Assembly: GCF_014898075.1 (NCBI RefSeq)
Contig: NZ_CP062976.1
Location: 1,426,001 to 1,490,000 of the forward strand
Length of the DNA: 64,000 bases
Source: Neisseria yangbaofengii
GTDB taxonomy: Bacteria > Pseudomonadota > Gammaproteobacteria > Burkholderiales > Neisseriaceae
Direction of reading: 5' to 3'
Shown in pieces: positions 2,991 to 31,831 of the stretch. The translations under genes and the position numbers were made by a program. Within the stretch, counting starts at the first letter, position 1; every line of letters starts with the position of its first letter. The notes beneath the pieces were generated by a model. It was not told where the DNA came from. It did not search any database and worked only from the letters and a program-made list of their open reading frames with translations.

Positions 2991-3068
2991 AAAAAATCCC
3001 TGTAACGTTGTTTCGTTATAGGGATTATCGTTTCAGACTGCCTGAAAGGCTTTTAGTACGGATTAAAA
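2991..3068 (-). promoter_or_regulatory. Late promoter module P1 (lysis operon)
   Basis: Read on the minus strand: TTTTAA (3068-3063), six bases, CTAAAA (3056-3051), exactly 21 bases, the hexamer GATAAT (3029-3024), then an inverted repeat with arms at 3026-3014 and 3007-2995, a T-run and the endolysin ATG at 2990. The 21-bp stretch contains a degenerate uptake sequence. It is one of five modules with identical spacing in this prophage and corresponds by position to Plys of Mu. The activator is inferred to be the Mor/C-like protein at 14,186. Confidence 0.7.
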
Positions 3069-9463: not shown

Positions 9464-9464
9464 A

Positions 9465-14546: not shown

Positions 14547-14576
14547 AGCGGTCAGGTTTTGTCCTGACCGCTTTTA
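14547..14576 (+). terminator. Intrinsic terminator after mor
   Basis: AGCGGTCAGG, six-base loop, CCTGACCGCT, then TTTTAT: a perfect 10-bp GC-rich stem with a short T-run. It does not contain an uptake sequence. Confidence 0.85.
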
Positions 14577-14667: not shown

Positions 14668-14741
14668 TTTTAAACCGCATTAAAAGCCGTTTCAGACGGC
14701 CTTTGTCAAAATAGCCTCATCAATCCGATGAGGCTTTTTTT
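14668..14741 (+). promoter_or_regulatory. Late promoter module P2 (protease/capsid operon)
   Basis: TTTTAA (14668), six bases, TTAAAA (14680-14685), 21 bases including an inverted uptake sequence, CAAAAT (14707-14712), then AGCCTCATC-AATCC-GATGAGGCT (14713-14735) and T-run to 14741, touching the GTG at 14742. The right arm supplies GAGG as ribosome binding site. By position it equals PI of Mu. Confidence 0.75.
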
Positions 14742-15854
14742 GTGAAAAAGTTTTTTGAAATTTTTAAATCCGGCACGCGCACCGACAACAACGGCCGCAC
14801 GGTGACGATTACCGATGCGGATGTTGCGCAGGCGGCTGCGGCGTATGACCCCAAGCTGCATGAAGCCCCGCTGGTTATCGGCCATCCTAAAATCGATGCC
14901 CCGGCCTATGGCTGGGTGGGTGGCTTACACGCCGATGGTGGCGTGTTGTCTGCCGATTTCGCACAGATGGACGATGACTTTGTCGGCTTAGTGCAAAGCG
15001 GCCGCTATAAAAAGGTGTCGGCCAGCTTCTATCCGCCCGACAGTCCGAGTAATCCGAAGCCCGGCTCTTGGTATTTGCGCCATGTCGGCTTTCTCGGCGC
15101 ACAGCCGCCTGCGGTGAAAGGCTTGTCCGCCATCAACTTTGCCGAAGACGATGTGTATGTGGAATTTTCAGAAGCTGCGCACGGTTATGCTGCCGGTTTA
15201 TTTGTCCGCCTGCGTGAATTTTTGATTGAAAAATTCGGCATTGATGAAGCGGATAAAGCTGTACCGAGCTGGCAGATTGAAAATTTGGAATGGGCAGCGA
15301 AATCTGCCGATACATCACCCACCCCGGCTTTTGCCGACCCCGTAACCCCAACAGAACCTCAAAACCATGAAAACAAGGAGACCGATATGTCGCCCGAAGA
15401 ACAACTGGCAGCCGAAAAAGCCGCCCGTGAACAAGCCGAAGCCAAGGCTGCTACTGCGGAAGCGGAGCTGAAACGCTTGAAAGACGAACAAGACCGCGAC
15501 TTGCGCGACGGCAAGCATGAGCAGAATGCCGAATTTGCCGAAGGCTTGGTGAAAGCAGGCCGTCTGAAACCGGCCGATAAAGACTTGGTGGTGCAGGTGT
15601 TGGATTTTGCCGAATACCCCGAGCATACCAGCGTCGATTTCGGCGAAGGCGAAGCGAAAAAGCCGCTTTCTGAAGCCCTGCGTGCGTTTTTGGGTGCGGT
15701 GCTGCCCACGCAGAATTTGGGCGGCAAGTTTGCCCAAGGCCGAACGGCAATGGATTTTGCCGAAGGCATGAGCCACCACGACCGCGCGCTGGCCTATCAA
15801 AAGGTACACGGTTGCAGCTATGAAGAAGCCGCCCGTCGCACCGCGCAAGATTAA
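14742..15854 (+). CDS. Mu I-like prohead protease with C-terminal scaffold
   Basis: A 370-residue protein. The N-terminal part (1-140: APLVIGHPKID, VGGLHADGGVLSADF, VSASFYPP, LRHVGFLGAQPPAVKGL) is the Mu gpI protease domain that matures the prohead. A linker and a charged coiled coil (215-260) form the scaffold part. A second start inside the gene (15,387) would give the scaffold alone, as Z of Mu. GTG start directly follows module P2 without another ribosome binding site. Confidence 0.88.
   Translation: MKKFFEIFKSGTRTDNNGRTVTITDADVAQAAAAYDPKLHEAPLVIGHPKIDAPAYGWVGGLHADGGVLSADFAQMDDDFVGLVQSGRYKKVSASFYPPDSPSNPKPGSWYLRHVGFLGAQPPAVKGLSAINFAEDDVYVEFSEAAHGYAAGLFVRLREFLIEKFGIDEADKAVPSWQIENLEWAAKSADTSPTPAFADPVTPTEPQNHENKETDMSPEEQLAAEKAAREQAEAKAATAEAELKRLKDEQDRDLRDGKHEQNAEFAEGLVKAGRLKPADKDLVVQVLDFAEYPEHTSVDFGEGEAKKPLSEALRAFLGAVLPTQNLGGKFAQGRTAMDFAEGMSHHDRALAYQKVHGCSYEEAARRTAQD
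15387..15854 (+). CDS. Nested scaffold protein (Mu Z-like internal start)
   Basis: In frame within the protease gene, AAGGAG lies seven bases before ATG 15387, a much better ribosome binding site than most in the window. The 155-residue product begins MSPEEQLAAEKAAREQAEAK, a coiled coil, and keeps the C-terminal region thought to bind the capsid protein. In Mu the scaffold Z is made from such a nested start in gene I. Independent translation here is inferred. Confidence 0.7.
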   Translation: MSPEEQLAAEKAAREQAEAKAATAEAELKRLKDEQDRDLRDGKHEQNAEFAEGLVKAGRLKPADKDLVVQVLDFAEYPEHTSVDFGEGEAKKPLSEALRAFLGAVLPTQNLGGKFAQGRTAMDFAEGMSHHDRALAYQKVHGCSYEEAARRTAQD

Positions 15855-15878
15855 CCCCTGTATCGAAAAGGAAACACA

Positions 15879-16817
15879 ATGAGCAAGCATTTAGCAGCGT
15901 TGCGCGAAAAAGACGAAGTGCTGACCCATCTGGCGGTCGGCTACCGTCAGACCGGCTTTGTCGGCGAACAAATCGCGCCGGTGGTGTACACCGAAAAAGA
16001 AGGCATCAAGGTGCCGGTATTCGGCAAAGGTTCGTTTGTCGAATACGAAACCGAGCGTGCGGTCGGCGCGGCCAGCAACGTGATTACGCTGGACCGCGGC
16101 AAGACCATGCCGGTGGTATTGGAAGAGCACGACTTGGCGGCCGGTGTGGACTACCGCGAGCAGCACGAAAGCCGCCATGACGAAAAAGCCAAGGCCGCAC
16201 GCCGCGTAACCGCCGGTATCCAGCTGAAGCAGGAATTGGAAATCGCCCGTCTGATTCAGGATAAATCGGTGTACCAGTCCGGCCATACCGAAGACTTGTC
16301 ATCCGCCGCCGAAAAACAGTGGACACACGAGCAATCCGACGTGCAGGAAGCGTTGGAAACCGCCAAAGAGAAGGTGCGCGCCGCCTGCGGCATCCGCCCG
16401 AACATCTTGGTGGTGGGTGCGCAAGTATTGAGCAAGCTGCGTATGAACGCAGGTTTGCGCAGCCACCTCTCGGCCAACGACCGCAAGGTATTGCTCAACA
16501 TCGAAACCCTGAAAAACCTGCTCGATGTGGACGACATCATTGTCGGTGAGTCGGTGTATGCAGAGGGCAGCGGCAAGGCCACCAAAGACGTATGGGGCAA
16601 TTTTGCCAGCCTGATTGTGCGCCCGACCATGATTGCAGACGGCAACGACGAAGGCCAAACCGCCTTTGCCTACACCTTCCGCCGCCGCGGCATGCCGGTG
16701 GTCGACCGTTACGATGCAGTGGGCGGCAAAGTGGAATACGTGCGCTATACCGACATCCGCAAAGCGGCGGTGGTCGGCGGCGCGTGCGGCTATCTGTTCC
16801 AAAACGTGATTGCTTAA
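15879..16817 (+). CDS. Major capsid protein (Mu T / BcepMu-type)
   Basis: A 312-residue protein that begins MSKHLAALREKDEVLTHLA and has the extended-loop and beta-rich sections expected of an HK97-fold capsid subunit, such as PVFGKGSFVEYETERAVGA, VLEEHDLAAGVDYREQ and the C-terminal RRRGMPVVDRYDAVGG. It follows the protease/scaffold gene, the standard order. AAAAGGAAACACA precedes the ATG. The palindrome and terminator after it may end this transcript or raise capsid yield. Confidence 0.85.
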   Translation: MSKHLAALREKDEVLTHLAVGYRQTGFVGEQIAPVVYTEKEGIKVPVFGKGSFVEYETERAVGAASNVITLDRGKTMPVVLEEHDLAAGVDYREQHESRHDEKAKAARRVTAGIQLKQELEIARLIQDKSVYQSGHTEDLSSAAEKQWTHEQSDVQEALETAKEKVRAACGIRPNILVVGAQVLSKLRMNAGLRSHLSANDRKVLLNIETLKNLLDVDDIIVGESVYAEGSGKATKDVWGNFASLIVRPTMIADGNDEGQTAFAYTFRRRGMPVVDRYDAVGGKVEYVRYTDIRKAAVVGGACGYLFQNVIA

Positions 16818-16819
16818 AT

Positions 16820-16835
16820 GCGACGACATCGTCGC
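16820..16835. repeat. Palindrome copy 3 of the GACGAC-(A/G)TCGTC family
   Basis: GCGACGACATCGTCGC, flanked by AAAT and TTTT to lengthen the dyad, starts three bases after the capsid stop. It shares its core with the palindromes at 6771 and 9465. Confidence 0.65.
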
Positions 16836-16844
16836 TTTTGATAA

Positions 16845-16873
16845 AGGCCGTCTGAAAGCCTTTCAGACGGCCT
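16845..16873. terminator. Uptake-sequence inverted pair after the capsid gene
   Basis: AGGCCGTCTGAAA-GCC-TTTCAGACGGCCT, a perfect 13-bp stem with a 3-base loop. It lacks a proper T-run on the plus strand, so termination is probably partial. AGGAG follows as ribosome binding site of the next gene. Confidence 0.55.
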
Positions 16874-16886
16874 CAGGAGAAACCGG

Positions 16887-17159
16887 GTGACTTTACAAGT
16901 GAAATTCGAAGACCTTGATGCCAAGGTCAAGGTAGCGGAATACCACCGTATCGGCGAAACCACCGCCATCGTCTGCTCGCTGACGCTGCAATCGGGGTTT
17001 GTGGTTATCGGTCAGGCCGCCTGCCTGAACCCTGATGTATTTGACAAGCAGGCAGGTTGCGAGCTGGCCTATCAGGATGCCATGCGTAAATTATGGGAGC
17101 TGGAAGCCTACCGCGTCAAAGAAAATGCTTTTGCAGAAAAGGAGGCCGTTCATGGCTAA
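16887..17159 (+). CDS. Gp49-family phage protein
   Basis: A 90-residue protein with the family pattern: TTAIVCSLTLQSGFVVIGQAA, then CLNPDVFDKQAGCELAYQDAM and RKLWELEAYR. Small proteins of this family occur in head or tail regions of Mu-like phages; the role is not known. GTG start with AGGAG upstream. It overlaps the next gene by eight bases. Confidence 0.65.
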   Translation: MTLQVKFEDLDAKVKVAEYHRIGETTAIVCSLTLQSGFVVIGQAACLNPDVFDKQAGCELAYQDAMRKLWELEAYRVKENAFAEKEAVHG

Positions 17160-17487
17160 ACAAACCAAACAGGTGGTGTTGACCACCACCATCAAAACCA
17201 CCGGCAAGGTGGTGGAAAACCGCTTCGTAACCTACGCCGGCAAACAGGCAAAGGCCAACGAAGCCGTGCTGGGTGTAGCTGCCTACGATGCTGACGAGAA
17301 CGAACTCTTGGCTGTTGACGTGGTCGGCATTGCGCTGGTGGAAGCTGGCGGTGAAGTGGCCGCAGGTGCAGCGGTATCTGCTGATGCACAGGGTTGTGCG
17401 GTGGCCGGTACGCAGAATGTGGCTGGCACGGCGGTAACGGCTGCAGCGGCTGCAGGTGACTTTATCCGCGTTTTGCTGAAAGGTTAA
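17152..17487 (+). CDS. DUF2190-type head protein
   Basis: A 111-residue alanine/glycine-rich protein, mostly beta, with a pattern of the DUF2190 family: AVLGVAAYDADENELLAVDVVGI, then repeated short strands with AAGAAV, GTQNVAGTAV. Such proteins decorate capsids. ATG 17152 follows GGAGG. It lies between Gp49-like and a small unknown head gene. Confidence 0.6.
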   Translation: MAKQTKQVVLTTTIKTTGKVVENRFVTYAGKQAKANEAVLGVAAYDADENELLAVDVVGIALVEAGGEVAAGAAVSADAQGCAVAGTQNVAGTAVTAAAAAGDFIRVLLKG

Positions 17488-17489
17488 TC

Positions 17490-17789
17490 ATGGCGAAAAA
17501 AACCTATATCGCGGAAACCGCGTTGATTCTGCAAGACAAAGACGGTAAGGAATTTCGTGTTGAAGCCGGTGAAGTGGTAGACCTTACGCCGGAGCAGTAT
17601 CAGGACGTGGCCGCCCATGTGGTGGCGGCGGAAATTTCCGACGAAGACTTGGCCGAAGCGGGCTATCAGCCCGACGGCGAAACACCGTTGGAAGACACAC
17701 CTGCCGAATCCGTGCCATCTGAAACCACTGAAGCCGACGCACAGCCTGAAAGCAAACCTGCCCGCAGCCGCGTTAAGAAAGGCGCGTAA
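17490..17789 (+). CDS. Small head-region protein with acidic tail
   Basis: A 99-residue protein. The first 60 residues are an alpha/beta unit (ALILQDKDGKEFRVEAGEVVDL), the rest a disordered Glu/Pro/Ser tail that ends in basic residues (ARSRVKKGA). It overlaps the next gene by one base (TAATG). No family is certain; position suggests a head-completion or decoration role. Confidence 0.5.
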   Translation: MAKKTYIAETALILQDKDGKEFRVEAGEVVDLTPEQYQDVAAHVVAAEISDEDLAEAGYQPDGETPLEDTPAESVPSETTEADAQPESKPARSRVKKGA

Positions 17790-18235
17790 TGCGTTACATC
17801 ACGCGTGATGACTTGGCGGCCGCGGTCAGCATGGCTGAGCTGGTGCAACTGAGTAATGACCAGATGAGCAACTACGGCATGGAAGAACCCGATTGGAACG
17901 TGGTCGACCGCGCCATCGTGTATGCCTCGGAACTCATCGACGGCCATATCAGCGGCCGCTACACGCTGCCGCTGGTACCGATGCCGGGCATCCTGCCGCA
18001 GCTGGCCACCGACATTGCGCGCTTTTGGCTGCATCAGCGGCGTGTCAATGCGGCGGAGTTTCCAAAGCCCGTTCAGACGGCCTACGACAATGCGCTGAAA
18101 TTTTTGGCGGCCATCCGCGACGGCAAAATCCATCTCGGCATACGCGAGGTGGAAGAGCCGACAGGCCGGTTGCAGCCCGAGCGCGGCGCATACCGCGTGC
18201 GCGGCGGCGGCAAGATGGATTTGGAGGGCTACTGA
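17789..18235 (+). CDS. Mu gp36-like head-tail connector (DUF1320)
   Basis: A 148-residue protein with the DUF1320 pattern: MRYITRDDLAAAVSMAELVQL, DWNVVDRAIVYASELIDGHI, SGRYTLPL and LPQLATDIARFWLHQRR. Family members form a helical ring at the head-tail joint, as gp36 of Mu and gp15-type adaptors. It overlaps the next gene (TGATG), again as in Mu. Confidence 0.85.
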   Translation: MRYITRDDLAAAVSMAELVQLSNDQMSNYGMEEPDWNVVDRAIVYASELIDGHISGRYTLPLVPMPGILPQLATDIARFWLHQRRVNAAEFPKPVQTAYDNALKFLAAIRDGKIHLGIREVEEPTGRLQPERGAYRVRGGGKMDLEGY

Positions 18236-18738
18236 TGGCGGCGACCGTACCGATTTTGCAGGCGGTGGTGTCGTGGTTGCAGGAGCAGCTGCCTGAAGCC
18301 GAAGTGCGGCTGTTTCCCGACAACCCTGCCCAATACCGCTTTATCCACCCCAAGGGCGCGGTGTTGGTGGGCTATCAGGGCAGCAAGTTCGGCAGCATCG
18401 AACAGTTGGGCAATATCTCGCAGCAGCGCGTGATGACCCTGCATTTAACTGTGTTCGGGCGCGGACTGCACCATGACGGGGCGGCTTTGGATTTGCTCGA
18501 CAGGCTGCGTTTGGCCGTTGTGGGCTTTAAGCCGCCGCACTGTCTGCCCTGCCACTTAATCAGCGAGCAGTTTGCGGGCGAAGACGGCGGCGCGTGGCAA
18601 TACAGCCTGCTGGTGCAAACCGAAACCCACCAAGTGCAGCAATGCCGCGAACCGGCACAACCGACCTTTATTGCCGCGCGTTACCGCCGCGAAGGCGACC
18701 CTTTAGAAACCGATTTGAAACCCAAGGAGAAACCATAA
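18235..18738 (+). CDS. Mu gp37-like tail completion protein (DUF1834)
   Basis: A 167-residue protein with VPILQAVVSWLQEQLPEAEV at the start, then GAVLVGYQGSKFG and an extended strand region before a polar tail. Size and place match gp37 of Mu, between gp36 and the tail sheath. ATG at 18235 overlaps the previous stop, and its stop overlaps the sheath start (TAATG). Confidence 0.75.
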   Translation: MAATVPILQAVVSWLQEQLPEAEVRLFPDNPAQYRFIHPKGAVLVGYQGSKFGSIEQLGNISQQRVMTLHLTVFGRGLHHDGAALDLLDRLRLAVVGFKPPHCLPCHLISEQFAGEDGGAWQYSLLVQTETHQVQQCREPAQPTFIAARYRREGDPLETDLKPKEKP

Positions 18739-20147
18739 TGGCAGCAGCCTTCCACCACGGCACGGAAACCATCCGCATCGACGGCGGCTCAGTGCCCGTT
18801 TACACCGTCGACGGCGCGATTACCGCCATCGTCGGCACCGCGCCTACCGGCGCGGTGAACGAACTGACCGTGTGCCAAACCAAAAAAGACTTTGCCGCAT
18901 TCGGCGGCGAGCTGACCGGCAAAGGTTTTACCCTGCCCGATGCCGCGCATATCTGGACGCGTTACGGCTCGGGCGTGGCCTATGTAATCAACGTATGCGA
19001 CCCGGCCAAACACAAAACCCGCATCAGCGACGAAGTGCTGAGCGTTGACAGCGATACGCTCACCGCATACACGGCCAAGCCCGCATTGTTGGACGGTTAC
19101 CGCCTTGCCGACGGCGCGGCCGCGCTGACCGAAGGCCAGCACTACACCATCAATGCGCTGACCGGCGAGATTGTGTACAAAACCAAACCGACCTCCCCGA
19201 AAATCACCTACGACCATGTCGACCCGGCAAAGGTTACCGAAGCCGACATTCTCGGCGCGTATGTAGCCGCCACGGGCAAACGCACGGGCTTGGAGCTGCT
19301 GACCGAAGGTTTCAACCGCTTTGGTGCGGACGCGAAAATCCTCATCGTGCCGGAGTTTGACAAAACTGCCACCTGCGCCGCCGCCATGATTGACACGGCC
19401 ACCAAGCTCAATGCCATTGCCTATATCAATGCCCCGAAGGGCACATCGTTGAGCAAGGCTTTGGAAGGCCGCGGCCCGAACGGCACGATTAATTTCAAAA
19501 CCTCTTCCGACCGCGCCCAACTGTTTTACCCGCACGTTGTCGGCCTGCTTGGTTTGGAACATCTGGCCACCCACGCGGCCGGCCTGCGCATGAAAACCGA
19601 TGTGGAAAAAGGCTATTGGTGGAGCATTTCGAATAAAGAGCTGTTGGGCGTAACCGGGCTGGAAGTGGGCTTGACCGCCCGTGCCGATGACCCGCAAAGC
19701 GAAACCAACCGCTTAAACGAAAAAGGCATTACCACCGTGTTCAACAGCTACGGCACGGGCTACCGCTTGTGGGGCAACCGCTTGGCCTGTTTCCCGACCG
19801 TTTCTCATATCAAAAACTTTGAAGTGGCGCAACGCACGGGCGATGTAATTGACGAATCCATCCGTCGAGTTGAGCTGCAATACGTTGATCGCCCAATAGA
19901 TGTTGAGGATGATGCTTTGATCGATAGCCTGATCGAAACTGTACGTACCTATTTGGGCACACTAAAGAGTATCGTCGGCTACGAAGTGGATTTAGACTAC
20001 GATTACGATCTGCCCGATGCGTTCAGCAAAGGCCAAGTCCCGATCAAATACGATTTCACGCCCAAGCTGCCCGCCGAGCGCATCACCAATACCAGCGTGA
20101 TGACGCGCAAGTATCTGGTCAACCTTGCCTCGGGCAACCGCAATTAA
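18738..20147 (+). CDS. Contractile tail sheath protein
   Basis: A 469-residue protein with sheath landmarks: an N-terminal region with GSVPVYTVDGAITAIVGTAP, a central variable part, ARADDPQSETNRLNEKGI near 325, GYRLWGNRL, then the C-terminal domain with IEVVRTYLG-like segments (LIETVRTYLGTLKS) and YDFTPKLPAERI. It forms the contractile outer tube. It is followed after 11 bases by the tube gene, the usual order in P2 and Mu. Confidence 0.92.
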   Translation: MAAAFHHGTETIRIDGGSVPVYTVDGAITAIVGTAPTGAVNELTVCQTKKDFAAFGGELTGKGFTLPDAAHIWTRYGSGVAYVINVCDPAKHKTRISDEVLSVDSDTLTAYTAKPALLDGYRLADGAAALTEGQHYTINALTGEIVYKTKPTSPKITYDHVDPAKVTEADILGAYVAATGKRTGLELLTEGFNRFGADAKILIVPEFDKTATCAAAMIDTATKLNAIAYINAPKGTSLSKALEGRGPNGTINFKTSSDRAQLFYPHVVGLLGLEHLATHAAGLRMKTDVEKGYWWSISNKELLGVTGLEVGLTARADDPQSETNRLNEKGITTVFNSYGTGYRLWGNRLACFPTVSHIKNFEVAQRTGDVIDESIRRVELQYVDRPIDVEDDALIDSLIETVRTYLGTLKSIVGYEVDLDYDYDLPDAFSKGQVPIKYDFTPKLPAERITNTSVMTRKYLVNLASGNRN

Positions 20148-20158
20148 GGAGCTGACAC

Positions 20159-20677
20159 ATGAGCGATTACATCCGCGCGATTTACAATGCCAACGTTTAC
20201 GTTGACGGCAACAGCCTGCTGGGTAAGGCTTCCGAGTTCAAACTGCCCGATTTTGAGATTACTCAGGACGAACACAAAGGCTTGGGCTTGTACGCCACCA
20301 TCAAGCTGCCCTCGGGTGCCGAAGCCTTGGAAGGCGAAATCACTTGGAACAGCCTGTATCCCGAAGTGGCCGAAAAACTCTACAACCCGTATCGCGGCGC
20401 ACAACTGATGGTACGCGCCAACCAGCAGCTGCACGATGCGGCGGGTTTGGCCAAAGAAGTGCCGGTGGTTACCGTGCTGACCGTCTTGCCGAGCAAAAAT
20501 GGCTTGGGCACGTTCAAACCGAAAGAGAAATCGGAACACAACACCACCTATCAGGCCACCGAAATCCGCCAAATCATCGACGGCCGCGAAGTGCTGTATT
20601 TCAACGCGTTCAAAAACATCTACCGCGTCGGCGGCAAAGACGTGTTGTCGCAGATGCGCAAAAACATCGGTGCGTAG
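20159..20677 (+). CDS. Tail tube protein (P2 FII / Mu M-like)
   Basis: A 172-residue protein: IYNANVYVDGNSLLGKASEFKLPDFE, GLGLYATIKLPSGAEALEGEITW, and C-terminal EIRQIIDGREVLYFNAFKNIYRVGG are typical for the major tail tube subunit of P2-type contractile phages. AAGGAG is nine bases before ATG. Module P3 begins two bases after its stop. Confidence 0.92.
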   Translation: MSDYIRAIYNANVYVDGNSLLGKASEFKLPDFEITQDEHKGLGLYATIKLPSGAEALEGEITWNSLYPEVAEKLYNPYRGAQLMVRANQQLHDAAGLAKEVPVVTVLTVLPSKNGLGTFKPKEKSEHNTTYQATEIRQIIDGREVLYFNAFKNIYRVGGKDVLSQMRKNIGA

Positions 20678-20678
20678 G

Positions 20679-20787
20679 TTTTAAACCGCATTAAAAGCCG
20701 TTTCAGACGGCCTTTGGCAGAATCGCTGTATCTCCCGCAGATACAGCGATTTTTTATTTGTATTGAATTTTTAAAAAGGAAACCATC
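20679..20787 (+). promoter_or_regulatory. Late promoter module P3 (tape-measure operon)
   Basis: TTTTAA (20679), six bases, TTAAAA (20691-20696), 21 bases with inverted uptake sequence, CAGAAT (20718-20723), then CGCTGTATCT-CCCGC-AGATACAGCG (20724-20748) and ATTTTTTA. Unlike the other copies, a 39-base leader with its own AAGGAAAC separates the T-run from the ATG at 20788. Confidence 0.72.
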
Positions 20788-21078
20788 ATGAACGAAGCAC
20801 AGAAACTGCAAGAAGACTTGGGCGCAACCCAAACCGTGAAGCTGAAATATCCGGTGCGTTTGGGCACGGGTCAGATGCTGGAAAAAGTGAATGTACGCCG
20901 TCCGCGCGTAGGCGATTTGCGTGCGGTTATGCACATCAGCAACGAAGCCGAGCAAGGCTTGTTATTGGTCGCCCGTGTAACAGGTTTGGTGCCGGAAGAC
21001 TTGGACGAGCTGGATTTGAAGGATTTGGAGGCGATTCAAGCCACCTTTCGCTCCGAAGACGAAGCCGTCGGCGCATAA
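20788..21078 (+). CDS. Tail assembly chaperone (gp41/gpE-like)
   Basis: A 96-residue protein with the chaperone pattern KLKYPVRLGTGQMLEKVNVRRPRVGDL and a C-terminal acidic helix (VPEDLDELDLKDLEAIQATF). It sits directly before the tape-measure gene, as gpE in P2 and gp41 in Mu, and coats the tape measure during tail assembly. A second frame continues beyond its stop and is probably reached by frameshifting. Confidence 0.85.
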   Translation: MNEAQKLQEDLGATQTVKLKYPVRLGTGQMLEKVNVRRPRVGDLRAVMHISNEAEQGLLLVARVTGLVPEDLDELDLKDLEAIQATFRSEDEAVGA

Positions 21079-21250
21079 ATCAGCTGCCGAGTCCAATCAG
21101 GAACTATTGGCCGCCTGTGCGGATTTGGCCTGGTGGTTTGGTTGGAGCGTGCAGGCCGTTTACGACCTGCCACTGGATGAGTTTGAGGAGTGGCAGAAAG
21201 AAGCAGCCCGCCAAATTAAGGCGGGCTATGCTCGGAACGGAATGATTTGA
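21020..21250 (+). CDS. Frameshift extension of the tail assembly chaperone (gpE'-like)
   Basis: The frame +1 (equal to -2) relative to the chaperone is open from 21020 to the TGA at 21248 and has no ATG or GTG start. It encodes ELLAACADLAWWFGWSVQAV then YDLPLDEFEEWQKEA, which matches the GpE' family (aromatic cluster, then PLxEFxEWxxxA). In P2 and Mu the second product is made by programmed frameshifting, in Mu reportedly by -2. GGAGGCGA at 21027-21034 is a candidate slip site but is not proven. Confidence 0.7.
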   Translation, partial: RIWRRFKPPFAPKTKPSAHKSAAESNQELLAACADLAWWFGWSVQAVYDLPLDEFEEWQKEAARQIKAGYARNGMI

Positions 21251-21263
21251 CGTTATGGCCGGA

Positions 21264-21443
21264 TTAACAGCGTTTTTCCCGTACTTCTTCAGCGAGACGC
21301 GTACACCAACCGTTTGGTTCCGGCTCTTTTTTGAACCATGCTTCGTATACCCATTCCAGTAAGCCCCAAGCAAGTCCGGCAATCATAGCCAAACCTGAGG
21401 CAATCACGATGAGAAGCAAGGCTGAGACGGCAAAGGCAAACAT
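21264..21443 (-). CDS. Small membrane protein antisense within the tail operon (59 residues)
   Basis: An ATG at 21443 is preceded by AAAGGGAAAAAAG on the minus strand. The product has one membrane helix (VSALLLIVIASGLAMIAGLA, about 6-25), then GLLEWVYEAWFKKEPEPNGW and a charged tail. It fills the otherwise empty 230 bases between the chaperone extension and the tape measure. Opposite-strand single genes in late operons are typical morons. No family recognised. Confidence 0.6.
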   Translation of the reverse strand: MFAFAVSALLLIVIASGLAMIAGLAWGLLEWVYEAWFKKEPEPNGWCTRLAEEVREKRC

Positions 21444-21483
21444 CTTTTTTCCCTTTCGTTATTCATAAACAGGATATTACCAC

Positions 21484-25031: not shown

Positions 25032-25258
25032 GTGCGGTATTGCGCTACACCACCCGCGCGGGCGACCGCTGGGATTTAATCGCCCACAAACACTACGGCA
25101 ACGCGCTGATGATTGACGGGCTGATTGCGGCCAATCCGCACCTGCCCCTAGCCGAAGAGTTTTCAGACGGCCTGACCGTATTCGTGCCGGTGTTGGAAAG
25201 CAAACCGAAAAACAGTCAGGCGGATATGCCGCCGTGGCTGCGTAAAGGAAGTGAATGA
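25028..25258 (+). CDS. Tail protein X (LysM-like)
   Basis: A 76-residue protein with a LysM-like fold typical for P2 gpX: YTTRAGDRWDLIAHKHYGNAL, then LIAANPHL and LTVFVPVL. It acts in baseplate or tail assembly and may touch peptidoglycan. It overlaps both neighbours by four bases. Confidence 0.85.
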   Translation: MSAVLRYTTRAGDRWDLIAHKHYGNALMIDGLIAANPHLPLAEEFSDGLTVFVPVLESKPKNSQADMPPWLRKGSE

Positions 25259-26361
25259 TGGATGTTTTGGGCGTATTTTTACAGCAAGCTGGCTTGGCGG
25301 CGGCTAACGTCCACCCCGTTACCCGCCCCGATTTCCTGCTGGCCTACGAGCAGCAGGACATTACTGCCGACATCAAGCCCTATCTCTTGTCGCTCACTTA
25401 TACCGACTATCTCGGCGGCCAGTCCGACGAATTGCAGGTGGACTTTGAAGACACCGACGGCCGCTGGCTGCGTGGTTGGTATCCTGAGCAAGGCGATGCG
25501 TTGACCTTGTCGTTGGGCGACCAGTTCACGGGCTTGGTGGATTTGGGCAGCTTTGAGATTGCCGAAATCGAATACAGCCATCCGCCCAGCACCGTCTCAC
25601 TCAAGGCGTTGGCCACGGGCATTACCAAAGCCAACCGCACCCTGCAGGCCAAATCCTATGAAAAAACCACGCTGGATAAAATCGTGCGCATGGTGGCAGG
25701 CCGTCTGAAACTGAAGGTAACGGGCGAAGTGGAAAACATCGAAATCGAACGCGTGACCCAGTATCAGGAGCGCGACATCGAGTTTTTGGCGCGCTTGGCC
25801 AAACAATACGGCCACACCTTCAAAATCGTCGGCGATACCTTGGTCTTTATGAGTAATGCGAAGCTGGCCCAACGCGAACCCGTGGCCGAGCTTTTGCCTG
25901 CCGACATGATCCGCGTGCGGCTGCGCGATTTGATTAAAGGCGTGCCCGACAAGGCGGTGGTGTCGGGTTACGACCCGAAAACCAAGCAAAAATACGAAAC
26001 CGAGCGGCCAGCCCGCCCGCGCCGCCCCAAGGCCAAACGCAGCACATCGGGCGACACGCTCAAAATCATCCCCAACAAAGGCGAGAGCCAAGCACAGACC
26101 AATGCCCGGGCCGACGCTGCCTTGGCCGATGCGCAGGATGAGCAATGCGCCGGCAATGTGACCGTGGTCGGCAACGCCAAGCTGGTGGCCGGTCAAGTCG
26201 TTATGCTGAAAAGCCACGGCAAATTCAGCGGCCGCTATATGGTCAAGCAGGCGCGGCACAGCTATGACCGCATGAGCGGCTACACAACCGATTTGGAAAT
26301 CAAAATGTTGGAATACGTCCCCGAAACCGAAGAAACGCAAGGAAACACCGATGCCGTCTGA
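25255..26361 (+). CDS. Tail hub protein D (P2 gpD / Mu gp44-type)
   Basis: A 368-residue protein with the gpD pattern: PYLLSLTYTDYLGGQSDELQ, FEDTDGRWL, IAEIEYSHPPSTVSLKALAT and ERDIEFLARLAKQYGHTFKI. It forms the trimeric hub above the spike. The family is often named late control protein D, but it is structural. ATG at 25255 (or 25258) follows AAGGAAGTGA. Its last eleven bases overlap the V gene start. Confidence 0.88.
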   Translation: MMDVLGVFLQQAGLAAANVHPVTRPDFLLAYEQQDITADIKPYLLSLTYTDYLGGQSDELQVDFEDTDGRWLRGWYPEQGDALTLSLGDQFTGLVDLGSFEIAEIEYSHPPSTVSLKALATGITKANRTLQAKSYEKTTLDKIVRMVAGRLKLKVTGEVENIEIERVTQYQERDIEFLARLAKQYGHTFKIVGDTLVFMSNAKLAQREPVAELLPADMIRVRLRDLIKGVPDKAVVSGYDPKTKQKYETERPARPRRPKAKRSTSGDTLKIIPNKGESQAQTNARADAALADAQDEQCAGNVTVVGNAKLVAGQVVMLKSHGKFSGRYMVKQARHSYDRMSGYTTDLEIKMLEYVPETEETQGNTDAV

Positions 26362-26935
26362 AACCCATGATTTCACCGCCACCATGCAGTTCGGCACGGT
26401 ATCGGCGGTCGACGAAGCAGGACACAACCTGCGCGTGCGACTGCCCGCCTTGGAAAACATGGAGACCGACTGGCTGCCGATGATTAGCCCTGCGGCGGGT
26501 AGCAATCAGTTTTACAGCCTGCCCGACGAAGGCGAGCTGGTGGTCTGCTTGCTCGATGCGCGCGGCGAAACGGGCTGCGTGGTCGGCGCGGTTTACAACG
26601 CCGCCGACAAACCGCCTGCGGCCGATAAAGACAAATGGGTGCGCCGCTTTAAAAACGGCACGGTCATCGAGCATGACCGCAAAACGGGCGATGTGTTGGT
26701 GCAAACCCAAGGCGTGGTAACCATTGATGCCGATGCGATAGTGAAAAAAACGCTGACGGTCAACGGCCTGTTTACCTATACCGCCGGTATGGCGGGCAGC
26801 GGTGGCGGCGGCGCGGCGGCCAAGATTGACGGCGCGATTGAAGCAACGGGCGACATCAAGTCCAAAGGCATCAGCCTGCCCGACCATTACCACGACGGCG
26901 ACAGCGGCGGCCAAACCTCCAAAGCCAAAAAGTAG
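26351..26935 (+). CDS. Baseplate assembly protein V (spike)
   Basis: A 194-residue protein with an OB fold (about 15-90: FGTVSAVDEAGHNLRVRLPAL, DEGELVVCLLDARGETGCVV), a short repeat strand region (VIEHDRKTGDVLVQTQGVVTI) that would form a beta-helix needle, and a C-terminal histidine/aspartate segment (DHYHDGDSGG) that may bind a metal ion at the tip. P2 gpV and Mu gp45 share this layout. Module P4 begins at once after its stop. Confidence 0.9.
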   Translation: MPSETHDFTATMQFGTVSAVDEAGHNLRVRLPALENMETDWLPMISPAAGSNQFYSLPDEGELVVCLLDARGETGCVVGAVYNAADKPPAADKDKWVRRFKNGTVIEHDRKTGDVLVQTQGVVTIDADAIVKKTLTVNGLFTYTAGMAGSGGGGAAAKIDGAIEATGDIKSKGISLPDHYHDGDSGGQTSKAKK

Positions 26936-27013
26936 TTTTAAAACTCATTAAAAGCCGTTTCAGACGGCCTTAGGCAAAATCCCTGTATCCATTAACGATA
27001 CAGGGATTTTTTC
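26936..27013 (+). promoter_or_regulatory. Late promoter module P4 (baseplate operon)
   Basis: TTTTAA (26936), six bases, TTAAAA (26948-26953), 21 bases with inverted uptake sequence, CAAAAT (26975-26980), then CCCTGTATC-CATTAAC-GATACAGGG (26981-27005), ATTTTTTC and ATG at 27014. AGGGA in the right arm is the only possible ribosome binding site. Confidence 0.75.
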
Positions 27014-27391
27014 ATGCAGTTTTCCACGCCCGTTTCCAAGCACTGGCAGCTTGCTCAAGGCGGCAGCGGCCTGTCGCAGGGTGCGGACGACATCGACCTC
27101 TGTATCCACACAATTTTGTCCACCCGCAAAGGCTCGGACGTTACCCGTCCCGATTTCGGCAGCAACCATTTCGACTGGATTGACGCGCCGGAAGACGTGT
27201 TCGTTCCCAACGCGGTTCGCGAAATCGTGCTGGCCGTGCAGACGTGGGAAAAACGTGTGCTGGTGGACAACGTAACCTTTTCGGGCAACGCGCCGCACAT
27301 CGTGATGATGGTGCATTGGCGCGTGGCCGATGACGTGGCAGGCGAGATTTACGCCACGCAAGTGATTTTGGAGCAGGCAGCATGGATTTAG
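27014..27391 (+). CDS. Baseplate wedge protein W (gp25-like)
   Basis: A 125-residue protein of the GPW/gp25 family: DIDLCIHTILSTRKGSDVTRPDFGSNHF with the conserved RxGSxxxxPDFG-type core, then a strand-rich C-terminus. It is a lysozyme-like wedge component in P2, T4 and Mu baseplates. It overlaps the J gene by ten bases. Confidence 0.9.
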   Translation: MQFSTPVSKHWQLAQGGSGLSQGADDIDLCIHTILSTRKGSDVTRPDFGSNHFDWIDAPEDVFVPNAVREIVLAVQTWEKRVLVDNVTFSGNAPHIVMMVHWRVADDVAGEIYATQVILEQAAWI

Positions 27392-28524
27392 CAAAACTCA
27401 AACGTGCCCACGTGAAGGTGGTGGACGACGATTTGGCCAAAGTGCTGGCCGAAACCATCGCCGACTACGAACAGCGCAGCGGCAAGACCTTACAGCCCGC
27501 ACACATTGAGCGGCTGCTGATTAATACCTATGCCTACCGGGAAACATTGGTGCGCCAAGCACTCAACGAAGCCTACCGCCAGCAGCACCCGCGCTTTGCC
27601 ACGGGCTTGATGCTGGATTTATGCGGCGATGATGTGAACACGCCGCGCTTGGAAGCCTCTGCCGCACGCTGCACCATCCGTTTTCAGGCAGCTTTGAGCG
27701 GCGTTCAGACGGCCTATATCCCCGTTGGCACACAAGTGGCTGCGGGCGAAGTGGTGTTCGCCACCACCGAAGCGGCCGAACTCTCGGCCACGCGCAGACA
27801 GGCCGATTTGCAGGCCGTCTGCACCCAAAGCGGCACGGCGGGCAACGGCTGGTCGGCAGGCCAAATCAGCAATCTGCTGACCGCGTTTTCAGACGGCCTT
27901 AAAGTGAAGGCCGCCAACATCAGCGTGCCTGCGGGCGGTGCTGATACGGAATCCGACGATGCCTACCGCGAGCGTATTCTGCTGGCGCCGGAGAGCTTTT
28001 CGGTGGCCGGGCCGGTGGGCGCATACGAATATTTTGCGCGACGCGTGAACCCGACCATCTGCGATGTCCATGTCGACAACAAAAAAACCGCCTCAGGCGA
28101 ACCGATAGGCGGTCAGGTGCAGGTTACGGTTTTGACGAAGAACGGTCTGCCGTCTGAAGAATTGTTGCGCGAAGTGGGCAAAGCACTGAGCCACGAGCGC
28201 GTGCGGCCGCTGTGCGACACCGTTACCGTGTCTGCGCCGACGGCAGTCGATTACGCGCTCGATGCCGAACTGGTGCTGTTTACGGGGATTAACCCTGCCG
28301 AAGCCGTGGCCGCTGCCGAAGAAGCGTGGGCAACCTATGAAGCCGGAAGGCGCGAACAGTTGGGCAAGGATATTGTGCCGCTAGATATTCAGACGGCCTT
28401 GAAAGTGGCCGGTGTCTACGACGTGGTGCTGCACAACCTGCCGCGTAAAGTGGTGGCGGCCGACCAATGGGCACGCTGCACTTCTGTGCGTATCCGTGCG
28501 GCCGCGCAGCAGACGGAGGGTTAA
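27382..28524 (+). CDS. Baseplate protein J
   Basis: A 380-residue protein of the baseplate J family: AETIADYEQRSGKTLQPAHIE, LINTYAYRETLVRQALNEAYRQ and GGADTESDDAYRERILLAPES, with VQVTVLTKNGLPSEELL and a C-terminal beta domain. With W and I it forms the wedge. ACC-to-stop distance to the I gene is only three bases. Confidence 0.92.
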   Translation: MDLAKLKRAHVKVVDDDLAKVLAETIADYEQRSGKTLQPAHIERLLINTYAYRETLVRQALNEAYRQQHPRFATGLMLDLCGDDVNTPRLEASAARCTIRFQAALSGVQTAYIPVGTQVAAGEVVFATTEAAELSATRRQADLQAVCTQSGTAGNGWSAGQISNLLTAFSDGLKVKAANISVPAGGADTESDDAYRERILLAPESFSVAGPVGAYEYFARRVNPTICDVHVDNKKTASGEPIGGQVQVTVLTKNGLPSEELLREVGKALSHERVRPLCDTVTVSAPTAVDYALDAELVLFTGINPAEAVAAAEEAWATYEAGRREQLGKDIVPLDIQTALKVAGVYDVVLHNLPRKVVAADQWARCTSVRIRAAAQQTEG

Positions 28525-28527
28525 AAC

Positions 28528-29106
28528 ATGACCAAACTGAGCTACGCGGCGGTGATTGAGCGCGACCAACGCTACAAAATGCTGGCCGATTTGGGTTTGC
28601 GCCTTAGCGAGGCCGACACGGCCAAACTCATGCCGCGTCTTATCCATTTGGTTGCGCCCGAGCATCTGGAGCTGTTGGCCGAAAGCCGCAGCATCTTGGG
28701 TGCAGACGGCTACTGGCTGGCCGAGTCCGACCAAATGAAACGCCGCCTGATTAAAGGTGCGTATGAGCTGCACCGCCATAAAGGCACGCCATGGGCAATC
28801 CGCGAAATCGTACGCCGCTTGGGATTCGGCGAAGTGCAGATTATCGAAGGCATGGGCGGCAAACGGCACAACGGCGAAATCGTTCGCGACGGCCGCTACG
28901 CCTACGGCCACAGCGACCGCTGGGCGCACTACCGCATCATCATGAACAACGTGATTACCAACGACCAGGCCGCGCTGCTGCGCCACACCCTGAAAGCCTT
29001 CGCGCCGGCACGCTGCGTGCTGGCTGCACTCGACTATCAGGCCAGCGCATTGAGACACAACGGCCGCGCCCGCCGCGACGGCCAATTCAACCGAGGAACC
29101 GCATAA
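28528..29106 (+). CDS. Tail protein I (P2 gpI-like)
   Basis: A 192-residue protein with LVAPEHLELLAESRSILGADGYWLAE and the signature KGAYELHRHKGTPWAIREIV, as in P2 gpI, then a basic C-terminus. It links the wedge to the tail fibre. The stop overlaps the fibre start (TAATG). Confidence 0.9.
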   Translation: MTKLSYAAVIERDQRYKMLADLGLRLSEADTAKLMPRLIHLVAPEHLELLAESRSILGADGYWLAESDQMKRRLIKGAYELHRHKGTPWAIREIVRRLGFGEVQIIEGMGGKRHNGEIVRDGRYAYGHSDRWAHYRIIMNNVITNDQAALLRHTLKAFAPARCVLAALDYQASALRHNGRARRDGQFNRGTA

Positions 29107-30950
29107 TGGCAAACTTAACCGAAACCAGCCGCTGGGAAGCGGGCATCTATCAGTTTGAAACCTCCGACCCCGTGATGGGCGGCCCCAACGGTATCGACAA
29201 CCGCCCGACCCGTGAGCTGGCCAACCGCACCCTGTGGCTGAAAAACGAAATCGCCAAAGCCGTGCAGAGCATCGGCACGAACAAAACCGCTGCCGAACAA
29301 GCCATCGCACTCAAAGCCAATGCGGCCACGATGCTGACCGCCGGTGCAGGTTTGACAGGCGGCGGCACGCTGGCAGCCAGCCGCAGCTTTGCGCTGGCCA
29401 CGCCGTCCACGCTCAACGGCAGCACCACCAACTGGGCAGGCAACGGTGCAACCGGACATACGCATGAGTTGGCCAAAGCCACCCCGACCGTGGCTGGCGT
29501 GGTTAAGCTGGTCAATGCACTAGATGTATCCGCCACCGATGCCGCATTAACCGCCGCGATGGGCAAAAAACTGCAAGACGAAAAGCTCGGCAACAGCGGC
29601 AATCAGACGCTGAACGGCCAACTGGGCATTACCCGCAATGCGTGGGAAAAAATGCGCTTCACCAATTCAGACGGCAGCTTCTGGCGATTTGAATCTGCCC
29701 CGATTGCCAGCGGCGAGAACGGAGCGCGCTTTAACTGGGTTTTTACAGGTAAAGATAGTCAAGAAGTAGGCCGCGTTTCATTCCCGCGCGTTTCAGGGGG
29801 TGAAACGGTTGCCTATCAAAGCTGGGTTACTCAAAAAATCGGCGAGGCAGCAGATAATAAAGTGCCGTCGAAGGCTTATGACTATTGGGCAAGAGCATCG
29901 TCAGACTATGGACAAAGCGGTTTCTACCGTGCAAATGGTCGCGAGGCAGACGGATTGAAAACGCCGAGTATGGAAATCCACATTGCCCATCCTGCCGAAC
30001 AGGGCACCAACAAATACGGACGCGGTATCGGTTTTTCTTATGGCCCGTCTTTTGGCTTGGTAACGACAGCTTGGGACGCCGAAGGCCGATACCAAGGCAT
30101 GAAAACCGTTCTGACCGAAGAAAATGGCGTGATGTTGAGCGGAAACCAAACCGTCGGCGGCACCAAAACCTTTTCCAACCGCGCCGATTTTGCCCAAGGT
30201 CTGCGCATCAGCGGCAGCAACACGGAACAATACTCAGTATTTTTACGCGGTAATGGCGACTGGTATTGGAGCAACCCGATTTCAGGGCAAGCCTTGCAAC
30301 TCAAAGACAATGGCGACCTAGCTTACCAAAACCGCAAAATCTACCACGAAGGCAACAAACCCGCTTGGGGCGACATTCAGAGTAAGCCCGATGTTGCTAC
30401 GCGCGGCAATACATTAGCGCATTACGGCATTGTCGATTCCGTAACCAACGCGGAGTTCCAGTGGTCGAGAGTACCGACAGGCACGGTTGCCTACTTTGCT
30501 TCCGACGGTGCGCCGCACGGCTGGCTGAAAGCTGACGGCGCACAAGTCAGTCGAAGCGGTTTTGCCGATTTATTCCGCATTATCGGTACGCGTTACGGCG
30601 CAGGAAACGGCAGCACCACATTTACCTTGCCCGATTTGCGCGGCGAATTTGTGCGCGGCTGGGATATGGGCCGCGGCGTGGACTCAAACCGTGTTTTAGG
30701 CAGTCTGCAAGCTGACGCAATCCGAAACATTACAGGCAAAGCCCTTGTGATTGACGCGGATATTGGCAGTGCCGGCGCAGGGCAAGGTTCGCTCTATTTG
30801 GAATCGTCAACGGTACAGACAAACGCGTCTGAAAACTCATCAGTCGGCTCTGCACACCGCAATCTGATATTTGACGCTTCGCGTACTGTGCCGACCGCCA
30901 ATGAAAACCGACCGCGCAATATCGCACTTTTGGCCTGTATCAAGGCTTAA
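29106..30950 (+). CDS. Tail fibre with collar domain
   Basis: A 614-residue protein. The N-terminus (ETSRWEAGIYQFETSDPVMGG) attaches to the baseplate; repeats with GAGLTGGG and GATGHTHELAKATPT form the shaft; the C-terminal part (about 455-570) is a phage collar domain (GTVAYFASDGAPHGWLKADG, TFTLPDLRGEFVRGWDMGRG). Such fibres determine host binding and exchange by recombination. The middle (about 200-400) is less repetitive. Confidence 0.88.
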   Translation: MANLTETSRWEAGIYQFETSDPVMGGPNGIDNRPTRELANRTLWLKNEIAKAVQSIGTNKTAAEQAIALKANAATMLTAGAGLTGGGTLAASRSFALATPSTLNGSTTNWAGNGATGHTHELAKATPTVAGVVKLVNALDVSATDAALTAAMGKKLQDEKLGNSGNQTLNGQLGITRNAWEKMRFTNSDGSFWRFESAPIASGENGARFNWVFTGKDSQEVGRVSFPRVSGGETVAYQSWVTQKIGEAADNKVPSKAYDYWARASSDYGQSGFYRANGREADGLKTPSMEIHIAHPAEQGTNKYGRGIGFSYGPSFGLVTTAWDAEGRYQGMKTVLTEENGVMLSGNQTVGGTKTFSNRADFAQGLRISGSNTEQYSVFLRGNGDWYWSNPISGQALQLKDNGDLAYQNRKIYHEGNKPAWGDIQSKPDVATRGNTLAHYGIVDSVTNAEFQWSRVPTGTVAYFASDGAPHGWLKADGAQVSRSGFADLFRIIGTRYGAGNGSTTFTLPDLRGEFVRGWDMGRGVDSNRVLGSLQADAIRNITGKALVIDADIGSAGAGQGSLYLESSTVQTNASENSSVGSAHRNLIFDASRTVPTANENRPRNIALLACIKA

Positions 30951-31010
30951 GGCCGTACCGCTATGCGGCAGGCTACGCACTCTGGAACTGTTTTTTAAAA
31001 AGGAAATCAC

Positions 31011-31757
31011 ATGACACAAAATATCCAATGGCAAAAACCCGTCTGCCAACTCGATCCAGACGGCCTGTATCTCCATCAGACGATGGCCGACCTTGATGTT
31101 TATACCAAAGACGGCGGCTACATCATTCCGGGCGGCTGCATCGATGCCGAACCGCCCGAAACCCGCGAAGGCCACGCCGCCCGCTGGGCGGGTGAGACAT
31201 GGGAATATCTGCCCGATTTGCGCGGCCGCACCGCCTACCGCACCGACAGCGGCGAAGCCGTGCTGATTGAAACGGTTGATGCGCTTTCAGACGGCCTCAC
31301 CCTTGAACCGCGTCCGAGCGAAGCGCACGAATGGCAAAACGGCGCATGGAAGGAAAACACCGAACGCGCCGCCGAAATCAAGGCTCAGGCCTTGGAAAAA
31401 GCCAAAGCCGAAAAGCTGGCCGAAATCAACCGCGCCGCGCAAGAGTTTGTCAGCCGAGCGGCGGAGCTCGACAAAACGCCAGAATTCGAAGTCGCCACTT
31501 GGCCGCTGCAAGCCGCCGAAGCGCAGGCATGGCACGCCAGCCCAGAAGCCGAAACGCCCGTATTGGCCGCCATCGCCGCCGCACGCGGCTTGGATTTGGA
31601 TAAACTCCGCGCTGCCGCTTTGCGTAAAGCCAACGCCTATACGACTTTGAGTGCGCATATTGCCGGACAGCGTCAGGCTTTGGCGGATAAGCTGGATAAG
31701 GCCAAAACGCTCAAAGCGGTGGAAGCGGTGTCTGTTTCCTACGCGCTGCCCGGCTGA
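31011..31757 (+). CDS. Tail fibre assembly protein with DUF4376 C-terminus
   Basis: A 248-residue protein. The N-terminal part (GLYLHQTMADLDVYTKDGGYIIPGGC) is the fibre-proximal domain found in assembly chaperones; the helical C-terminal part (KAEKLAEINRAAQEFVSRAAE, ATWPLQAAEAQAW, LRAAALRKANAY) is DUF4376-like. It lies just after the collar fibre. AAAAAGGAAATCAC precedes the ATG. Module P5 begins two bases after its stop. Confidence 0.8.
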   Translation: MTQNIQWQKPVCQLDPDGLYLHQTMADLDVYTKDGGYIIPGGCIDAEPPETREGHAARWAGETWEYLPDLRGRTAYRTDSGEAVLIETVDALSDGLTLEPRPSEAHEWQNGAWKENTERAAEIKAQALEKAKAEKLAEINRAAQEFVSRAAELDKTPEFEVATWPLQAAEAQAWHASPEAETPVLAAIAAARGLDLDKLRAAALRKANAYTTLSAHIAGQRQALADKLDKAKTLKAVEAVSVSYALPG

Positions 31758-31758
31758 T

Positions 31759-31831
31759 TTTTAATCCGCATTAAATGCTTGTGTCCTACCCAAACGTTAA
31801 TATCCCTGCATATTTATGCAGGGATTTTTTT
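31759..31831 (+). promoter_or_regulatory. Late promoter module P5 (second adsorption module)
   Basis: TTTTAA (31759), six bases, TTAAAT (31771-31776), 21 bases, TAATAT (31798-31803), then CCCTGCAT-ATTT-ATGCAGGG (31804-31823) and ATTTTTTT touching the ATG at 31832. The 21-base stretch is unrelated in sequence to the other copies and has no uptake sequence, yet the spacing is identical. This favours selection on spacing rather than simple duplication. Confidence 0.75.

Follow-up and report, generated by a model that had tools for sequence, protein, structure and literature searches.

Predicted Mor-dependent late promoters of a Mu-like Neisseria prophage that appear to start inside a terminator-type hairpin holding the ribosome site

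In phage Mu, the site bound by the activator Mor is described as 16 bp long, with two 5-bp inverted repeats and a GC-rich hexanucleotide, centred at position -43.5 of a promoter that has no -35 element (PMC4390567, PMC4287176). According to a published survey, Mu-like phages that include 3927AP2 and SuMu are without the late activator C, and the identity of its substitute has to come from experiments (PMC4553209). In phage T4, long transcripts of e, soc, 49 and I-TevI hide the ribosome site in a hairpin, and gene e transcripts from a late promoter, which are without the 5' part of that hairpin, are translated (PMC3014915). Here, these systems are compared with five elements in a 64-kb stretch of the Neisseria yangbaofengii genome (contig NZ_CP062976.1, positions 1,426,001 to 1,490,000; hereafter the window), which by profile searches of its gene content contains a Mu-like prophage.

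The five elements, designated P1 to P5, are probably (at a rough probability of 0.73, judged from sequence) late promoters activated by a Mor-family protein, in which a hairpin would serve both as terminator and as a lock on the ribosome site that the promoter's own transcript escapes. At four of the five sites the gene that follows can be recognised, as one for lysis, head, tail or baseplate, respectively. The parts of the five modules are arranged as follows (SD, Shine-Dalgarno sequence).

2991..3068, minus strand: P1 module, with dyad at 3068-3051, spacer at 3050-3030, GATAAT at 3029-3024 and predicted start A at 3017
Downstream of P1, minus strand: hairpin, T-run, then the endolysin ATG at 2990 (GH108, PF05838, E 3.1e-30)
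14668..14741, plus strand: P2 module, with dyad at 14668-14685, CAAAAT at 14707-14712 and predicted start A at 14719
Downstream of P2, plus strand: hairpin at 14713-14735, T-run, then the head protease GTG at 14742 (phrog_976, E 5.5e-121)
20679..20787, plus strand: P3 module, with dyad at 20679-20696, CAGAAT at 20718-20723 and predicted start A at 20730
Downstream of P3, plus strand: terminator-type hairpin, a separate SD (AAGGA), then the tail protein ATG at 20788 (phrog_166, E 1.8e-21)
26936..27013, plus strand: P4 module, with dyad at 26936-26953, CAAAAT at 26975-26980 and predicted start A at 26987
P4 hairpin, plus strand: perfect 14-nt arms at 26976-26989 and 26997-27010, then a T-run
Downstream of P4, plus strand: baseplate wedge ATG at 27014 (phrog_43, E 2.7e-22)
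31759..31831, plus strand: P5 module, with dyad at 31759-31776, TAATAT at 31798-31803 and predicted start A at 31810
Downstream of P5, plus strand: hairpin at 31802-31825, T-run, then ATG at 31832 (phrog_1128 family)

The original prediction placed five copies of a late promoter element with a fixed geometry at 3068 (minus strand), 14668, 20679, 26936 and 31759, and all are present at these places, with dyads and hexamers that match the letters it quoted and a hexamer exactly 21 bp after the 18-bp dyad in each of the five. The inverted repeat and T-run that belonged to this geometry are also found in five of five, but the start codon adjoins the T-run (0-1 base) in only four, that of P3 lying 58 nt past the predicted start. 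The prediction overlooked what the inverted repeat may do: it is a hairpin of the intrinsic-terminator type, with a stem that runs from the -10 hexamer. The half-site given as TTTTAA reduces to a conserved core of five bases, TTTAA/TTAAA, with a looser outer T/A, and the spacer filler, said to be unrelated in P1 and P5, is so in P5 but shares GCC and TTTCAG with the other copies in P1.

With one mismatch allowed, the dyad occurs 6 times in the window compared with 0.54 expected, and none of 100 shuffles reaches 6; five of these six dyads have the reported hexamer at exactly 21 bp, followed by hairpin and T-run. Across the 2.65-Mb genome, the pattern of dyad, spacing and NANAAT with at most one mismatch recovers 7 places (P1-P4, P2 on the opposite strand, 54918 and 1966145) and does not capture P5. 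The remaining dyad of the window (11658-11702, one mismatch, TATGAT at 21 bp) was rejected as a sixth late promoter, as it lies within an early open reading frame (ORF; 11491-12000) and has no hairpin. An arrangement of this type is also present in L146, L154, L157, L160, L163 and L166, where conservation may be driven by the protein. A match of a looser scan at 53995 (minus strand), outside the prophage, was taken as chance.

A search for the motif in related prophages, which had been proposed as a check, recovered this site at this spacing from 13 of the first 14 regions fetched, the exception (G040) having a distant Mor with 27% identity. These regions represent 14 of the 18 places with a Mor match in a genus set of 46 genomes, that of the window included, to which 5 places in other genera (two of them in G054) were added; 15 of the 46 genomes have a Mor match at E <= 0.001, and at E <= 1e-8 the family as a whole has one in 17 of 83 genomes and 4 of 12 genera. 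A -10-like hexamer stands at 21 bp in 61 of 138 dyads (at most one mismatch, window plus the 14 related regions, both strands, duplicates included), and at any other spacing between 0 and 59 in at most 5. Among viral contigs, for which 80 of 134 relatives were kept, group labels were assigned by us and duplicate contexts were removed, the 21-bp register is occupied in 41 of 84 distinct exact 5-6-5 dyads from Neisseria-like contigs (next best spacing, 5), 34 of 112 from Pasteurellaceae-like contigs (13) and 7 of 24 from other contigs (2); some of these contigs are probably identical to prophages in the genome set. Contigs labelled enterobacterial (62 loci, L286-L347) have 0 of 6 distinct exact dyads at this spacing. 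Given the shuffle count and the spacing peaks, neither chance nor the mere copying of a repeat was accepted as the explanation of the dyad.

Within the genus, exact matches to dyad, spacing and NANAAT are listed in 13 of the 15 genomes that have a Mor match, compared with 6 of the 31 that do not, and the two Mor genomes that have no exact match contain distant Mor proteins. In seven genomes without a Mor match that have module hits (the six exact ones plus G016), pieces of Mu-like genes were found near the hit in 7 of 7 (L353-L359), so that modules persist beside such remnants. Exact matches apart from the Mor prophage occur in G001 (two), G010 C185, G021 326856, G043 (two) and G044 1543127; those of G043 (C1 1706960 and 1713214) are far from its Mor prophage and perhaps belong to a second Mu-like element in which no Mor was detected. 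A scan of genome contigs with the Mor protein as query confirmed no relative.

A collection made without regard to hairpins contained 160 modules with at most one mismatch (103 from Neisseriaceae, 49 Pasteurellaceae-like and 8 other, duplicate contexts removed), of which 114 have the exact core. The next ORF matches one of eight reference proteins in 80 of the 160, namely the head protease in 33, baseplate in 17, tail in 17, lysis in 11 and the P5 gene in 2, and none of these 80 is assigned to the mid-operon references (major head, sheath, tape measure). A second set of 49 distinct elements was obtained from 67 rows by removal of 16 whose hexamer is not xAxxxT (one-base shifts included) and 2 duplicates; it still holds at least 2 non-modules (L148 14369 and L149 11268).

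The gene at 14186 that was assigned to the Mor/C family indeed belongs there (PF08765 E 2.2e-32, 111.7 bits with a cut-off of 24.9). Its best PDB sequence match is 1rr7, Mu Mor (E 4.2e-9), followed by the C chains 9l0x and 9vw8, and it is the single Mor match in the source genome. The site TTTAA-N6-TTAAA comprises two 5-bp inverted repeats and a 6-bp spacer whose central four bases are mostly G/C among the 49 elements. An A is present at +7 after the hexamer in 44 of these 49 and in all five window copies, as well as in 63 of 85, 28 of 37 and 6 of 8 hairpin-blind modules with a nearby start codon (Neisseriaceae, Pasteurellaceae-like and other, false hits included). If this A is taken as +1, the inferred start puts the site centre at -42.5, which differs by one base from that of Mu Pm. 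When 14000-33000 was scanned for a two-hexamer consensus, no site was listed at the four plus-strand elements, a result that still allows for a weak -35. A Mor-family activator for the five elements thus appears well supported. The proposal that one activator controls five late operons is supported in part by the single Mor, the fixed geometry, the gene context and the relatives; the accompanying proposal of a new specificity probably holds insofar as the site is distinct from the Mu C site that was quoted and also from the one in SuMu and 3927AP2, which is of the GTGGAA type. Neisseriaceae and Pasteurellaceae-type phages share the TTTAA site, which is not used by Mu and SuMu-type phages, and site specificity seems to split within the Mor family, of which TTTAA would mark one branch, because SuMu and 3927AP2 combine another dyad with very different Mor proteins.

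In the window, each hairpin stem starts at or just within the hexamer, the predicted start falls in the 5' arm, and a U-run follows. By scan, three of the four plus-strand hairpins are terminator-type (a GC-containing stem plus U-run), and those of P4 and P1 were recognised as such by inverted-repeat search and reading. Predicted folding of the 49 elements gave a median of -17.5 kcal/mol for the hairpin of read-through RNA compared with -0.9 for promoter-started RNA. Of the hairpin-blind modules with the exact core, 45 of 76 from Neisseriaceae, 15 of 32 that are Pasteurellaceae-like and 2 of 6 in the other group form at least 8 of the 9 pairs from +1 to +9; after the leader was shuffled, the respective fractions are 4.5%, 5.5% and 7.5%. 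Among the arm pairs that reach this level, 34 are unique, and in these 95.1% of cells are paired, compared with 59.6% (standard deviation 2.8) when 3' arms were redealt (2000 redeals, largest value 69.9%). This shows that the arms change together; it says nothing on how frequent hairpins are, because the 34 pairs were chosen for pairing.

The SD lies in the 3' arm of the hairpin in four of the five window copies, the exception being P3. P2 has TGAGG, and P4 and P5 have AGGGA, at a distance of 7-8 nt from the start codon; P1 has AGGG. The T-run separates the two. In read-through RNA, the SD core of P1, P2, P4 and P5 is predicted to be unpaired with a probability of 0.00-0.01 and that of P3 is not hidden; in comparison with shuffles, p is 0.016 for P2 and P4 and 0.066 for P5, and for P1, scored within the 49-element folding set only, the value is 0.01 in read-through and 0.50 in promoter-started RNA. 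An SD-core score was available for the 92 of 114 exact-core modules with a recognisable SD. Among Neisseriaceae modules (n = 63), the median probability that the SD core is unpaired is 0.00 for read-through RNA, compared with 0.37 for RNA that starts at the promoter and 0.25 when the upstream sequence is shuffled, and burial has p <= 0.05 in 42 of 63 (the floor being 0.016). For Pasteurellaceae-like modules (n = 26), the corresponding medians are 0.01, 0.37 and 0.18, with p <= 0.05 in 13 of 26, and the other group has 1 of 3.

More distant elements show variations on this arrangement. In Pasteurellaceae-type modules the 3' arm is often a canonical AAGGAG, and the T-run is missing in some. The lys leaders of SuMu and 3927AP2, which have a different dyad, exhibit read-through-dependent SD burial (p 0.02 each). 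PhiKM and KP12 have a looser dyad and short hairpins in which SD burial does not go beyond shuffles; for the start codon, burial beyond shuffles is seen in three of the four PhiKM modules (p 0.01-0.02) and in 0 of 4 KP12 modules. In L233 and L245, the arm complementary to the SD, as judged by eye, is apparently part of the spacer and precedes the -10 (p 0.016 and 0.18).

The baseplate modules of G065, G054, SuMu, 3927AP2, PhiKM and KP12 have their +7 A on the A of the start codon, making leaderless late messages possible for these operons; the records are L194:10663, L199:11062(-), L349:30505, L350:29082, L184:17260 and the L351 baseplate module, with L199 and L351 numbered on the minus strand. 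PhiKM and KP12 are close to each other, as are SuMu and 3927AP2, so there are fewer than six independent cases. In the AFS-2018a baseplate module, the +7 A is one base off the A of the start codon.

A sequence of events that would account for this arrangement begins with production of Mor in the early phase and binding of a dimer to TTTAA-(GC-rich N6)-TTAAA, centred some 42-43 bp upstream of the start, where the site would replace a -35 element and recruit RNA polymerase to, or open it at, hexamers that are weak on their own. Transcription would initiate at the conserved A seven bases past the hexamer, within the 5' arm of the hairpin. A read-through RNA, with both arms, would fold into an intrinsic terminator and end at the U-run, and any that slips past would have its SD buried in the 3' arm in four of the five copies. 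Promoter-started RNA would be without most of the 5' arm, because starts fall inside it, and would therefore pass the T-run and expose its SD. From these fates of read-through and local RNA it would follow that late operons are insulated and that late products, endolysin foremost, come mainly from Mor-dependent transcripts. At P1, the device may keep a lysogen from making endolysin, because the upstream neighbours on the minus strand are repressor-side genes.

It is about an even bet whether this amounts to a phage-wide one-way valve, in which activator site, promoter, terminator and ribosome site are fused at each late operon. Under that extension, the promoter would fire inside the terminator, such that upstream RNA is both ended and silenced and local RNA escapes both. 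The design would have been kept or re-formed across TTTAA-type phages and the GTGGAA-type lys genes of SuMu and 3927AP2, with a 5' arm that may stand after, on or before the -10 yet outside the local transcript, and a leaderless start would take the place of the hairpin in some baseplate operons.

Several observations weigh against the reading of the elements as Mor-activated promoters nested in a lock. The +7 start, binding by Mor, termination and translational control are all inferred. The hexamers are weak -10 matches, at 4 of 6 positions in four of the five window copies. Since the A-tract in them is paired with the U-run, their conservation may in part be attributable to the terminator. 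The genome-wide pattern is unspecific once a mismatch is permitted, occurring in 41 of 46 genomes regardless of Mor; owing to common ancestry of the modules and overlap between the sets, the counts are not independent; and the 80 of 160 modules that have no gene assignment include real modules ahead of a different lysis gene, P5 of the window and false hits. A score that spans the entire interval from the SD to the start codon (99 of 114 modules, some with a misassigned TTG start) gives a much weaker signal, with p <= 0.05 in only 19 of 66, 7 of 27 and 1 of 6 modules of the Neisseriaceae, Pasteurellaceae-like and other groups, probably because the T-run and AUG are outside the stem. Tail modules with a long leader, P3 among them, leave the SD exposed, as do 8 of 11 Pasteurellaceae-like modules at presumed protease genes, the remaining 3 of which miss p 0.05. 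No significant burial was found at Mu Plys, PI and Pmom, where start sites were taken as +7 and the SD that a script picked for PI (ATGAG) may be wrong, or at SuMu I, SuMu gp46 and 3927AP2 I.

Some of these points would be expected if the promoters are Mor-driven but the hairpin is merely the terminator of the upstream operon, its overlap with SD and start being a matter of compaction and not of regulation. This is possible but not likely: all five window hairpins are terminator-like, and the exposed SD of P3 and of most scored Pasteurellaceae-like protease modules, together with the weak wider score, fits such a view. Yet P1 and P2 have a hairpin with no late operon directly upstream, P2 already has a terminator after mor, many Pasteurellaceae-type 3' arms are the canonical AAGGAG, and burial of the SD core exceeds that of shuffles in the 42 Neisseriaceae and 13 Pasteurellaceae-like modules noted above. 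It is improbable that the dyads instead serve as operators for a different regulator, such as a repressor or host protein, with the hexamer being only the A-tract of a terminator, as pairing with the U-run and the poor -10 matches could imply. The 5-6-5 layout, GC-rich centre and position agree with the published Mor site, position 3 of the hexamer is unpaired in the stem in 21 of the 49 elements (A2 and T6 being selection criteria), leaderless-type baseplate modules retain the hexamer and +7 A without that hairpin, and exact sites are concentrated in genomes that have Mor.

The spacers raise a further alternative, namely repeated elements linked to DNA uptake that spread by recombination, with the spacing kept by copying. 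The sequence TTCAGACGGC lies within the 21-bp spacer of P2, P3 and P4, which share most of that spacer, and we take TTCAGACGGC / GCCGTCTGAA to be the Neisseria DNA-uptake core; GCCGTCTGAA has 62 copies in the window, and it or its complement is found in 22 of 76 exact-core Neisseriaceae spacers. Even so, this origin is very improbable, as the spacing is still 21 where spacers are unrelated, in P5 and in further Neisseriaceae genera where a different 10-mer dominates. It is likewise 21 in Pasteurellaceae-type contigs, where none of six tested uptake-like words occurs. It is as if uptake sequences fill a slot that is fixed in length and free in sequence. A CAGCCTGAA-type 10-mer is present in the spacers of 6 modules of G065 and L220, and in L193, L194, L220 and P2-P4 the spacer often carries the host's own dominant 10-mer.

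Compared with the described systems, Mor-activated promoters with a nested hairpin would be closest in their upstream half to Mu Pm, which likewise has a 5-6-5 dimer site centred near -43 in place of a -35 element (PMC4287176, PMC4390567). The Mu sequence AGTAA-AGCCGG-TTAAT, 22 bp, TATCCT has the same register as the modules, its identity with the mapped Pm being our reading. The half-site differs, being TTTAA here, and with a single Mor match one activator would serve five late promoters. The hairpin is also placed differently, over the -10 and start here and, as we read it, over the Mor site itself in Mu, where a GC-rich hairpin and T-run (L182, 9173-9216) overlap the likely Mor dyad in another register. 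A one-mismatch dyad near the Mu repressor (1058, minus strand) was taken as chance. The C-dependent promoters Plys, PI, PP and Pmom of Mu resemble these elements in having a Mor-family activator, a weak -10 and several late operons (PMC4461284). They differ in their dyad and in the absence of significant burial at Plys, PI and Pmom. SuMu and 3927AP2 are Mor-only Mu-like phages that also have a -10 at one fixed distance from the dyad (5 copies found by pattern), but with the dyad GTGGAA...TTCC and a very different Mor protein. Neither Pseudomonas phage H71 nor Microcystis phage Mae-JY22 has a match to the dyad.

In its downstream half, the module would work like T4 gene e, and a lysozyme is again the guarded gene, with a role for the endolysin similar to the one described in T4 (PMC3014915). 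It would not be classed as one of that type, because the hexamers are of the host -10 type and stand with a Mor dyad, unlike the T4 late promoter TATAAATA; in addition, the hairpin is also terminator-like here and present at most late operons rather than a few scattered genes. In full-text searches of open-licence papers, no title or start of an abstract was found that deals with the motif or with a terminator/SD hairpin at a Mor-family late promoter. The component parts are of known kinds, and their fusion and use across a late regulon look new. Sequence points to the one Mor-type gene, to where its product probably binds and to the genes it probably controls, across two groups of hosts and two types of site; this gives a regulon that can be tested directly and a first step towards a recognition code for the Mor family. 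With the nested hairpin, the device known from T4 lysozyme would be extended to most of a phage's late operons and coupled to termination, in what would be a compact insulated promoter part.

The remaining prophage genes place these elements in context, and those to the left of the late region are the following.

5308-5730: repressor-type gene with a helix-turn-helix (HTH) motif
7598-10646: transposition genes
Between the transposition and head genes: GemA gene, listed with the Mor-family gene
14186..14527, plus strand: Mor/C-family activator gene, 113 amino acids
14547..14572, plus strand: separate terminator-like hairpin directly 3' of mor and upstream of P2

Head, tail, baseplate and fibre genes are located after the Mor-family gene. 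The left part of the minus strand contains the endolysin, a possible spanin and the small subunit of terminase, and genes for the large terminase subunit, portal, minor head and neck proteins sit just beyond the window edge (region L348). The late region has at its right end an ORF of 1053 amino acids (32580-35741) with no PHROG match at E 0.001, and close to it is a DNA methyltransferase-like gene (35960-36850; phrog_56, E 1.7e-96).

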